DNA of 64,000 nucleotides from Planktomarina temperata RCA23 (GTDB lineage: Bacteria; Pseudomonadota; Alphaproteobacteria; Rhodobacterales; Rhodobacteraceae): positions 992,001-1,056,000 of the forward strand of contig NZ_CP003984.1 of assembly GCF_000738435.1 (NCBI RefSeq), read 5' to 3'. Of the stretch, positions 16,187-19,587 are shown piece by piece. The stretch's first letter is position 1. The number at the start of each line of letters is the position of its first letter. A program made the translations under genes and the position numbers. The notes under the pieces were generated by a model that saw only the letters and a program-made list of their open reading frames with translations, was not told the origin of the DNA and did no database searches.

Positions 16187-16660
16187 TTAAACGGGAACAC
16201 TCAAACAGGTCAAAACCAAAGCCGTCAGCAGCGCGCGCAATTTCAGCCACCAATCTGGCGTCAATCGGTGACGGAAGAACACGATATCTAGGCCGAAGAG
16301 CGCCAAGAATCCGGCGCTGAGCGCCGCAAGCTGCTCGGGCGCGTTGCTGGCCAGCACGAAAGTCGCCCAGAGCGCTGGAAGGACCGATAGGCCGAAAAAT
16401 AAGGGGGCGTTTTGCTTTGGTGCTTTACACGCGAACCCCCAAAGCACCCCGGACATAAACGATAAGATCACCGCGCCATAGGTCAGCTGTAGATCGCGCC
16501 CCAAAAAACCGGGGCCGAGCCAATCGGCGATCGGTCGGGAAATATCCGTGTTCCAAGCGCTTATAGCCCCCCAAAGAAACGGCAGCACGCCGGCAAGGCC
16601 AAGCCACAAGGGGGCGGTTGGGATTTGGGTTCGAATGGCGCGGCTGTTAAGAAAATTCAT
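16187..16660 (-). CDS. DUF3429 membrane protein
   Basis: A 157-residue membrane protein starting MNFLNSRAIRTQIPTAPLWL. A longer frame exists upstream, but the ATG at 16660 overlaps the photolyase stop as ATGA, which fixes the start. Hydrophobic segments (LWLGLAGVLPFLWGAI, YGAVILSFMSGVLWGFA, FFGLSVLPALWATFVLAS, LSAGFLALFGLDIVFF, LRALLTALVLTCLS) give about five TM helices. The pattern with GAVILSFMSGVLWG is that of DUF3429. Function is unknown; translational coupling to the photolyase suggests a light- or membrane-stress-related role, but this is inference. Confidence 0.8.
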   Translation of the reverse strand: MNFLNSRAIRTQIPTAPLWLGLAGVLPFLWGAISAWNTDISRPIADWLGPGFLGRDLQLTYGAVILSFMSGVLWGFACKAPKQNAPLFFGLSVLPALWATFVLASNAPEQLAALSAGFLALFGLDIVFFRHRLTPDWWLKLRALLTALVLTCLSVPV

Positions 16661-18198
16661 GGGGTGCGGTCTTGTGTTGCGAGATCTTTTAAAAATTGTT
16701 CGGCATCGGATCGGATGGCCTGTTGTTTGTCGGCATCCATGTGATCGTAAACCCGGTACATCATGCCAACCCGTGGATTGGCGCGCAGCTTGGCGCGGTT
16801 GCGGTCGAGAAAATCCCAATAAAGGTAATTAAATGGGCAGGCCTTTGGGCCGTTTTTGGCCGTGACGCTATAGCTGCAGCCTTTGCAATAGTTGGACATT
16901 TTGTTGATATAGCCACCGCCAGAGGCATAGGGTTTGCTGGCCAATTTACCGCCATCGGCAAAGAGCGCCATGCCCGAGACATTTGGCAGTTCAACCCATT
17001 CGAAGGCATCGGCATAAACGCTTAAAAACCAGTCATTGACCTGCGCGGGCAAGATACCGGCCAGGAGCGCAAAATTCCCCAGAACCATCAACCTTTGGAT
17101 GTGGTGCGCATAGGCATGATCTATCGTCTCTTGCACCGATTGGCGCAAACAGTTCATGCGCGTGTCAGCGGTCCAGTAGAAGTCGGGTAGATCGCGCTGG
17201 GCATCAAAAAAGTTGAGCGTTTCATAGCCGGGCATATTTTGCCAATAGAGACCGCGCACAAATTCGCGCCACCCCAAAATTTGCCTTATAAAGCCTTCAA
17301 CCGCATTGAGAGGCGCTTGACCTCGATGATAGGCCTGCTCGGCTGCGGCAATACACTCAAGCGGAAGCAACAAGCCGGTGTTGAGATAGAGCCCAATATG
17401 GGCATGGAACATCCAGGCTTCATCTTGAAGCATGGCATCTTGGTAATCGCCAAAGAAGGCCAAGCGTTCCTCAACAAATTGCTGCAATGCCGCGCGTGCG
17501 CCCTCAGCGGTCACGGCGAAATGGAAGGGGGTGGCGGCGCCCATATGGTCGGGGAACAGCTGTTCGACCATCGCGCAGACCTCTTGGGTGACGCCATCGG
17601 GCGCAAGGCGAAACGTGTCGGGAATAGTCAGTGTCGCATTGGGCGCTTTGCGGTTGTCGCTGTCAAAATTCCATTGATCTCCAATCGGCTGGTCACCCTC
17701 CATCAAGATATTGTAACGCTTGCGCATTTCACGATAGAAATATTCCATGCGCAAGGATTTGCGCCCCGCGCTCCAGTTCTGAAAGTCGCTGTGGCTGGCG
17801 AGAAATCGCGTGTCGGGGCGGATATCGACCGGCAGATTTAGCAGATCAGGCCAAAGCTTGATCTCTTCCAAAACACGATATTCGCTGGGCTCTGTTACGA
17901 CGATTTCGTCAAAATCGCCCATTTGAGCCGCGCGGGTCACTGCATCGGAAAAGCGTGACACAGGCGTGGCATCATCGAGCTTGTGGTAGATCACCCGGTA
18001 TTTTGCGTCCCGCAGCTCTTGTGCGAAATGCCGCATGGCGGAGAAAATGAAGACTAGTTTTTTCTTATGGTGTTTGACATAGGTGGCTTCTTGCTGAACT
18101 TCACAGATCAAGATGGTGTCTTTGGTCTTATCGGCACCGTGCAAACTCGATATTGTTGGACTGAGCTGATCGCCTAAGATTACGCGTAATACCGCCAC
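16657..18198 (-). CDS. phrB: FeS-type bacterial cryptochrome/(6-4) photolyase, PhrB family
   Basis: A 513-residue protein with GTG start at 18198. A longer frame exists, but GAGGG five bases before this GTG and the family length (~510) favour it. With this start the cluster cysteines fall at residues 350 (MNCLRQS), 438 and 441 (YCKGCSY) and 454 (KACPFNY), the same numbers I recall for the 4Fe-4S ligands of Agrobacterium PhrB. The N-terminal domain begins VAVLRVILGDQLSP; the FAD domain includes GWREFVRGLYW and the stretch WVELPNVSGMALFADGG. These enzymes repair (6-4) photoproducts or act as photoreceptors, using FAD plus a lumazine-type antenna. It is coupled to DUF3429 and divergent from a second photolyase homologue at 18370. 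Confidence 0.92.
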   Translation of the reverse strand: MAVLRVILGDQLSPTISSLHGADKTKDTILICEVQQEATYVKHHKKKLVFIFSAMRHFAQELRDAKYRVIYHKLDDATPVSRFSDAVTRAAQMGDFDEIVVTEPSEYRVLEEIKLWPDLLNLPVDIRPDTRFLASHSDFQNWSAGRKSLRMEYFYREMRKRYNILMEGDQPIGDQWNFDSDNRKAPNATLTIPDTFRLAPDGVTQEVCAMVEQLFPDHMGAATPFHFAVTAEGARAALQQFVEERLAFFGDYQDAMLQDEAWMFHAHIGLYLNTGLLLPLECIAAAEQAYHRGQAPLNAVEGFIRQILGWREFVRGLYWQNMPGYETLNFFDAQRDLPDFYWTADTRMNCLRQSVQETIDHAYAHHIQRLMVLGNFALLAGILPAQVNDWFLSVYADAFEWVELPNVSGMALFADGGKLASKPYASGGGYINKMSNYCKGCSYSVTAKNGPKACPFNYLYWDFLDRNRAKLRANPRVGMMYRVYDHMDADKQQAIRSDAEQFLKDLATQDRTP

Positions 18199-18369
18199 TT
18201 TTCCCTCAATTCCGTTTTGCCCAGGCTGGTGCCCACTCTTGGAACCTTCAACTAGATTGATTTGACCGCGCTGCAACGCGGTGCTTTGAATTTTTGCTGG
18301 GTGAGAGGCCAAGAGCGCATTGCAATATCGGCGTGCCGCTATAGCTCAGAGGCAACATAGGAGCTGGCG

Positions 18370-19587
18370 ATGGCACAAGTGATGACGGCAACCCGTGCGG
18401 CGGGGCAAGCGCGGCTTGAACAGTTTTCCGCGAAAATGGGGCGCGATTATGCCCAGGGGCGCAACTTCGATCGGGGACCGGCTGCGCATCAGGATGTGTC
18501 GATGCTATCAGCCTATATCCGACGCCGGCTCATAACTGAGCCCGAGGTCATCGCCACGGCCATAAAAACGCAAGGCGCTGAAGCCTCTGCAAAGTTCATT
18601 GATGAGGTGATTTGGCGCAGTTATTTTAAGGGGTGGTTGGAACAGCGGCCCGAGGTGTGGAACAACTATACCGCGGGGTTGCGGCAAGACTTGGCCGCGC
18701 TGGAGGGTGATGTGGGGCTGCGCCAAGCGGTTCATGCCGCCGAAACGGCGCAAACCGGGCTGGACTATTTCGACAGTTGGGCAGCTGAGCTGATTGAGAC
18801 CGGATATTTGCACAACCATGCGCGGATGTGGTTTGCCTCCATTTGGATCTTCACGCTTAAATTGCCATGGCGCCTTGGGGCAGATTTTTTCTTGAAGAAC
18901 TTGTTAGACGGGGATCCGGCCTCCAATACCTTGAGTTGGCGCTGGGTCGCGGGGCTGCACACGCGCGGCAAACCCTATGTCGCACAGGCGAGCAATATTG
19001 CGCGCTTCACCGAAGAACGCTTTGTGCCGCGCGCGCAAGAGTTGACGCAGAGCGCCTCTGGGCTGGAGGCGCTTGAACCTGACGGGCTGCCAGAGTGCAA
19101 TCCTCCAAGGGTGCCAAATGCGCCGCAACTGCACCTTCCAACCGCGATTTTGTTTACGGAGGAGGATTGCCGGATCGAAGATTTTCCCTTTCGAGACTTG
19201 ATCTGCACCGCTGCGGCCACTTTGGCGGCGAGCCCCCTGCGTTCGCCGCGTGATGTCGCGCAGCTTGTGGTGCGGTTCGAGGCGGGTGCTTTGGCCGATG
19301 TTGCGCAAAGATCGGGTCTTGCTGTCTCAGCGACGCAGATTGGCGCGCCGTCAGATCTTGCGCGGTGGGCGCTGCAATCGGGCGCGCAGCAAATTGTGAC
19401 GCCCTATGTGCCTGTTGGCCCCCTGCGCGATTGGCTTGCGCGCGCCCAACCAGAGCTCGAGGCGGCCGGCATTTCCTTGACGGAATGGCGGCGCGATTGG
19501 GATGCGATGGTCTGGCCCCATGCGACCGCGGGATTCTTTAAGGTCAAAAAACAAATTCCGAAGTTCTTGCGCACAATTTGTGCATGA
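18370..19587 (+). CDS. photolyase/cryptochrome homologue with swapped domain order (FAD domain first)
   Basis: A 405-residue protein. Residues ~35-235 match the FAD-binding domain of class I photolyases: VSMLSAYIRRRLITEPEV, FIDEVIWRSYFKGWL, NHARMWFASIWIFTLKLPWR and, most clearly, LLDGDPASNTLSWRWVAG. Normal photolyases carry a Rossmann-like antenna domain before this; here only ~30 residues precede it. Instead residues ~255-405 look like that antenna domain: a strand-like TAILFTEEDC, LARWALQSGAQQIVTPYVPV and FFKVKKQIPKFL, where the usual domain ends YRVFTPF. This suggests a circular permutation. An AGGAG site precedes the ATG. The gene is divergent from phrB across 171 bp, so the two may be co-regulated. 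Whether it repairs DNA is unknown. Confidence 0.78.
   Translation: MAQVMTATRAAGQARLEQFSAKMGRDYAQGRNFDRGPAAHQDVSMLSAYIRRRLITEPEVIATAIKTQGAEASAKFIDEVIWRSYFKGWLEQRPEVWNNYTAGLRQDLAALEGDVGLRQAVHAAETAQTGLDYFDSWAAELIETGYLHNHARMWFASIWIFTLKLPWRLGADFFLKNLLDGDPASNTLSWRWVAGLHTRGKPYVAQASNIARFTEERFVPRAQELTQSASGLEALEPDGLPECNPPRVPNAPQLHLPTAILFTEEDCRIEDFPFRDLICTAAATLAASPLRSPRDVAQLVVRFEAGALADVAQRSGLAVSATQIGAPSDLARWALQSGAQQIVTPYVPVGPLRDWLARAQPELEAAGISLTEWRRDWDAMVWPHATAGFFKVKKQIPKFLRTICA

Follow-up and report, generated by a model that had tools for sequence, protein, structure and literature searches.

An inverted, probably NewPHL-type photolyase gene in Planktomarina temperata with a predicted antenna-like domain behind the FAD domain

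Photolyases of inverted topology have already been published, as the NewPHL/SPL proteins and as Phr4–Phr7 of picocyanobacteria (PMC13274461, PMC9426592). The NewPHL/SPL class, with accessions A8LJA9 (D. shibae), M7YZC8 (M. mesophilicum), Q2N8F4 and B6IPR5, is described as combining inverted topology with repair of cyclobutane pyrimidine dimers (CPDs) in single-stranded DNA (PMC13274461); E. litoralis and R. centenum are named beside D. shibae and M. mesophilicum as hosts of inverted photolyases, and the D. shibae NewPHL is credited with 'a mere Trp dyad' (PMC8948257). Phr7 of Prochlorococcus consists of an N-terminal flavin adenine dinucleotide (FAD) domain and a C-terminal 'Z-domain' and lacks the cysteine motif, and Synechococcus/Cyanobium carry split (Phr4/Phr5) and fused (Phr6) inverted photolyases (PMC9426592). 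Our own literature search for a permuted photolyase identified none by title among the papers listed. Here we describe a gene in a 64,000-nucleotide stretch of Planktomarina temperata RCA23 (NZ_CP003984.1, positions 992,001 to 1,056,000; hereafter the window), an organism of the same bacterial order as D. shibae. The gene very probably encodes a NewPHL-type, that is short and inverted, CPD photolyase with a relocated antenna-type C-terminal domain, an assignment made from features set against published descriptions, which counts against it. The initial annotation had raised the possibility of an unstudied kind of enzyme; the published class takes that place.

On the predicted structure, the order of the two domains is the reverse of that in E. 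coli photolyase, with the FAD domain first and the alpha/beta domain second. AlphaFold2 returned a full-length model with a predicted local distance difference test (pLDDT) score of 95.5 and a predicted template modelling (pTM) score of 0.93, and a model of the C-terminal domain alone with values of 91.0 and 0.84. When the model was aligned to E. coli photolyase (PDB 1dnp), residues 1–237 fell on residues 194–469 and residues 256–405 on residues 1–167, and the predicted alpha/beta fold corresponded to about the first 165 residues of photolyase. FAD_binding_7 of Pfam matches residues 76–209 through profile positions 1–131 of 203 only, so that, unlike in class I E. coli PhrB, the last third of the profile is unmatched; the C-terminal 161 residues have no Pfam match. 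All five NCBIfam matches are photolyases or cryptochromes, each under its cut-off and confined to residues 4–204. The closest solved relative by sequence is 1dnp (59.5 bits, query 11–204 on 206–396), and with this as its best match that search yielded no close homologue of known structure. The predicted structure and its inverted alignment to 1dnp thus confirm the initial annotation in placing the FAD domain before the alpha/beta domain, and the outcome named there as fatal to it, a lack of kinship between the C-terminal part and the photolyase alpha/beta domain, did not arise. The protein shares with class I E. coli PhrB the FAD residues, most lesion-binding residues and both domains, and PhrB differs in having its antenna domain first, a three-Trp chain and R342; the model alignments do not show the class I arrangement, in which the antenna domain precedes the FAD domain. 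FeS-BCP proteins (PhrB/CryB) differ in domain order, in their DPRP domain and in their iron-sulphur (FeS) cysteines, the window protein having neither a match to PF04244 nor the cysteine motif.

The window protein fits NewPHL and Phr7 in each feature examined. Inverted topology, a bacterial host, a CPD-type active site and a Trp dyad are common to it and NewPHL/SPL; with Phr7, compared by description, it shares the domain order and the missing FeS cysteines, and differs in host phylum. If the assignment is right, the N-terminal helical domain (about residues 1–235) would bind FAD, and under blue or near-ultraviolet (UV) light the reduced flavin would pass an electron to a CPD in the active-site pocket, the dimer would be split and the electron would return to the flavin, oxidised FAD being reduced through a two-Trp chain from W190 to W167. 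Here the CPD specificity and single-stranded-DNA preference would carry over from the published class, and the flavin-to-dimer electron transfer under blue light from the family. The C-terminal alpha/beta domain (residues 256–405) would be the antenna-type domain of photolyases, relocated to the opposite end of the protein; judged by its position and degeneracy, it probably forms a cap over the FAD side of the catalytic domain, perhaps with no pigment of its own. A true photolyase in which the moved domain still binds 8-hydroxy-5-deazaflavin (8-HDF), methenyltetrahydrofolate (MTHF), lumazine or flavin in a changed geometry would suit an antenna fold that is complete and confidently predicted, but it is unlikely given the degenerate sequence of the domain and the view in the NewPHL abstract, where the C-terminal domain reportedly seals the FAD site.

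Whether the C-terminal domain is an antenna domain by descent, as the NewPHL-type reading has it, or a HUP/Rossmann domain of unrelated origin (USP- or nucleotidylyl-transferase-like) that was gained separately, turns on fold and profile comparisons. Several results weigh against the former. Foldseek gave a mixed list for the C-terminal domain, in which 22 of the 50 matches listed were photolyases or cryptochromes (TMq 0.39–0.52) and the remaining rows were PPAT, USP, Cam1 and others. Direct hhalign comparison with 30 canonical antenna domains was weak (probability 6.6, E 0.0055), its score of 23.6 standing close to the best of 200 shuffles (21.5), and E ranged from 1.8e-4 to 0.017 across eight variants. 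The window protein did not reach the PF00875 gathering score and had no match to this family, which was matched weakly by 4 of 61 family members (best E 0.01), with BLH_phosphatase equal in number. When the C-domain profile was searched against PDB sequences, 32 were listed at E up to 10, with no photolyase among them, so that the claim of homology rests on fold comparison and on a bridge through a second group of inverted photolyases.

That bridge has two steps. The window-type C-domain profile (125 members) matched 14 second-group antenna domains with a probability of 92.4 (E 5.3e-7, 131 columns), and these in turn matched the 30 canonical antenna domains with a probability of 94.8 (E 5.5e-8, 141 columns); neither score was reached by column shuffles (0 of 200) or by any reversed profile, and the bridging domains are colinear in alignment with window-type and canonical domains alike. 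When the window-type and bridge profiles were varied in 24 ways, E ran from 5e-7 to 4e-3, with 19 variants spanning 128–138 columns and 5 spanning 38–109. The bridge loses strength once the Deinococcus members are removed, and the less diverse profile A2 gave just probability 7.2 (E 0.005) against A3, a further point on the opposing side; A1 and A2 comprise the window protein and 60 relatives, out of 87 rows under 80% identity. In VIA-align with the C-domain model, ranks 1–17 went exclusively to photolyases or cryptochromes; the alignments of photolyases mostly extended to model residue 172–173, whereas USP rows stopped at 142–153. Together with the colinearity of the bridging frames, and with their matches to PF00875 (7 of 15 second domains at E up to 1, best 8.3e-5), this makes a separately acquired HUP domain improbable. 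On the structure prediction and the bridged comparison, the C-terminal domain is antenna-like with reduced sequence similarity, and the swapped order suggested by the initial annotation finds support in the same two lines of evidence.

The second group occurs in Deinococcus, some Alphaproteobacteria and Persicobacter, and resembles both the window protein and the cyanobacterial Phr4/Phr5 and Phr6 (the latter by description only) in placing the FAD domain first and the antenna domain second. It differs from the window protein in its better-preserved antenna domain and in being encoded often by two overlapping open reading frames (ORFs). In Deinococcus sp. QL22 the FAD-domain ORF is followed by one that overlaps it by 4 nucleotides (nt), is annotated 'hypothetical protein' and matches PF00875 at E 2.3e-4, under the cut-off; in D. 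wulumuqiensis and on two other Deinococcus plasmids both domains are fused. A search of 386 genomes of the window organism's class found 10 further loci of the split kind (L163–L172), and in every one the second-domain ORF stands immediately behind or overlaps the FAD ORF; seven of these second domains were recognised by phmmer with P0003, and those of L170–L172 by position and alignment only. Measured in 10 pairs (L160, L164–L172), the candidate start overlaps the FAD stop by 4 nt in six and by 8 nt in two, L164 has a 14-nt gap between the ORFs, and L169 offers several candidate starts further inside. In a small set of 30 canonical photolyases, a hidden Markov model (HMM) of the second domain matched the N-terminal region of all 30 at E up to 10; 11 of these matches were at 1e-3 or better, and that to E. 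coli photolyase only at 1.7. As in the window protein, FAD_binding_7 is matched incompletely in the scanned members, over only the first 119–135 of its 203 positions. Within the phylum this group is uncommon, with a match at E 1e-35 or better in 1 of 398 genomes. On a Persicobacter (Bacteroidota) plasmid, a fused inverted photolyase frame of 404 residues (L195:2857–4068, plus strand) stands directly 5' of another photolyase-like ORF of canonical order.

Half of the second-group rows (7 of 14: L160, L161, L163–L165, L193 and L194) have the three-cysteine motif where the FAD domain ends, L166–L169 have no or one cysteine at the site, and L170–L172 could not be placed; the label 'FeS-type' therefore does not suit the whole group. 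Window-type proteins lack the motif, as does the Phr7/NewPHL branch: in 125 family members there was no cysteine in 97, one in 18, two in 1, and 9 were unplaced. Inverted photolyases may have lost the motif on more than one occasion.

Residues were mapped in E. coli numbering across 51 sampled family members, 30 canonical class I rows and 14 second-group rows, with functional roles, including the CPD-pocket list and the 15-residue FAD-site list, that we take to be those of the E. coli enzyme. R344, D372, D374 and N378 of the FAD site correspond to R152, D180, D182 and N186 in 51/51, and R31, E79, W82, N149, R152, M153, D180, D182, N186 and W192 are conserved in 49 to 51 of 51. At the FAD site, 11 of the 15 residues match those of E. 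coli. The exceptions are T234, R236, W271 and W338, and of these R236, W271 and W338 are also variable or different among the 30 class I rows. Six of the seven CPD-pocket residues (R226, E274, W277, N341, R342, M345, W384) are kept in the window protein, and all but R342 are retained in 49 to 51 of 51 family members; FeS-BCP proteins have His for N341 and Leu for M345 in 23/23. R342, a lesion/DNA contact in E. coli, is replaced by His in 50/51 family members and, in a further likeness, in 14/14 of the second group, and is Arg in 30/30 canonical rows; this residue, His150 in the window protein, might, as a guess, be involved in the single-strand preference. Two positions of the Trp triad still hold Trp, with W190 for W382 and W167 for W359 (51/51), and W306 is Gly in the window protein, Trp being outside the three commonest letters of the family group at this position. 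W137 and W159 are present in 51/51 family members each and mostly or wholly missing from the 30 class I rows. An alternative, a bacterial cryptochrome sensing blue light that had lost repair and signalled through its relocated C-terminal domain, could draw on the His at R342, on these extra tryptophans and on the adjoining FeS-BCP-type gene, whose family includes cryptochrome B (3zxs), but it is very improbable given the near-universal retention of the pocket residues E79, W82, N149, M153 and W192 and the CPD repair ascribed to the assigned class (PMC13274461). Of the 'photoreceptor or repair enzyme' of the initial annotation, the retained catalytic residues favour an enzyme of CPD repair over a pure photoreceptor.

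The relocated domain bears on photolyase ancestry. One proposal puts short photolyases at the root of the whole photolyase/cryptochrome family (Xu 2021, cited in PMC9649867 and PMC9498864). The relatives examined still have the alpha/beta domain, either C-terminally in the same protein or in the next ORF. If the antenna domain was moved or is encoded next door, the argument for short photolyases as primitive one-domain ancestors loses part of its support; a domain kept but relocated would mean that the two-domain state predates short photolyases, or that the order was flexible from the start. We lean, on balance, towards a history in which NewPHL/SPL proteins are not such ancestors but kept the antenna domain behind the FAD domain, either in one protein with it or encoded by an overlapping ORF of its own, with gene fission and reordering, refusion and loss of the FeS cluster leading to the window protein. 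The relocation is what this analysis adds, and it may already be in print. In a FAD-domain tree of 119 rows, including 51 of 125 family rows, the window family forms a single clade (Shimodaira–Hasegawa-like approximate likelihood ratio test, SH-aLRT, 99) and the second group requires two changes; the tree leaves the root of the permutation unplaced because FeS-BCP and L001 sit on long branches (6.8 and 6.0) and it has no outgroup.

The family is widespread. At least 586 stretches among 84,980 species genomes encode relatives at tblastn E 1e-3, a count that may include other photolyases. The best 80 of these, at 47–83% identity, were analysed; by title they are mostly Rhodobacterales or other Alphaproteobacteria, with a few Gammaproteobacteria or Burkholderiaceae, and the nearest named relative among the matches listed is a Planktomarina metagenome-assembled genome (83% identical). 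From the relatives and the first genome-search loci, 99 ORFs (97 distinct) cover the family end to end; ORFs that match without spanning it, such as L069, L072, L080, L082, L106 and L107, were left out. Among 299 Pseudomonadota genomes sampled evenly, 17, the window's own included, match at E 1e-25 or better, all within the window's family or class, one of them (G076) belonging to the second group. Two scans of viral contigs confirmed no relative, and a phage collection gave 10 matching records, each with its match in the FAD region and none covering over 80% of the query. Eight plasmid records cover at least 80%, of which six are named 'FAD-binding domain-containing protein' and two have no annotation there. 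A family so common in marine Alphaproteobacteria and yet so poorly named could easily have its repair role overlooked.

Table 1. Coordinates of the inverted photolyase gene, its parts and its neighbour (positions in the window)
Feature	Positions	Strand	Basis
NewPHL-type (assigned by features) inverted photolyase gene, 405 residues	18370..19587	+	ORF; full-length model; relatives in at least 586 genome stretches
AGGAG, ribosome-binding-site-like, 6 bases 5' of ATG	18359..18363	+	read from sequence
N-terminal FAD (catalytic) domain, residues 1-235	18370..19074	+	
LLDGDPASNTLSWRWVAG, residues 178-195: D180/D182/N186 (FAD), W190 (Trp dyad), W192 (lesion stacking)	18901..18954	+	residue mapping
Interdomain linker, residues 236-255	19075..19134	+	model without regular secondary structure there
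C-terminal alpha/beta (antenna-type, Rossmann-like) domain, residues 256-405	19135..19584	+	
Divergent neighbour, FeS-BCP-type prokaryotic (6-4) photolyase (PF04244 DPRP)	16657..18312	-	Pfam E 2.1e-80

Of the genomes of the genus that were searched, 15 hold both the inverted gene and its FeS-BCP neighbour (Table 1), and in 9 of them (G000–G004, G009, G010, G014 and G016) the two stand head to head. A FeS-BCP gene was seen at 4 of the 80 relative loci, where flanks of up to 6 kb, some ending at contig ends, were available, so the pairing seems to be a trait of this genus. A light- or UV-controlled promoter region shared between the two genes is possible. The genome also holds two canonical-order photolyase genes, and together these genes would deal with both CPDs and (6-4) lesions, as would suit a bacterium of the surface ocean. 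In two genomes of the same genus (G009, contig C5; G018, contig C2) the family gene lies in pieces in different frames, through decay or assembly error, and in G009 the neighbouring FeS-BCP gene is in pieces as well.
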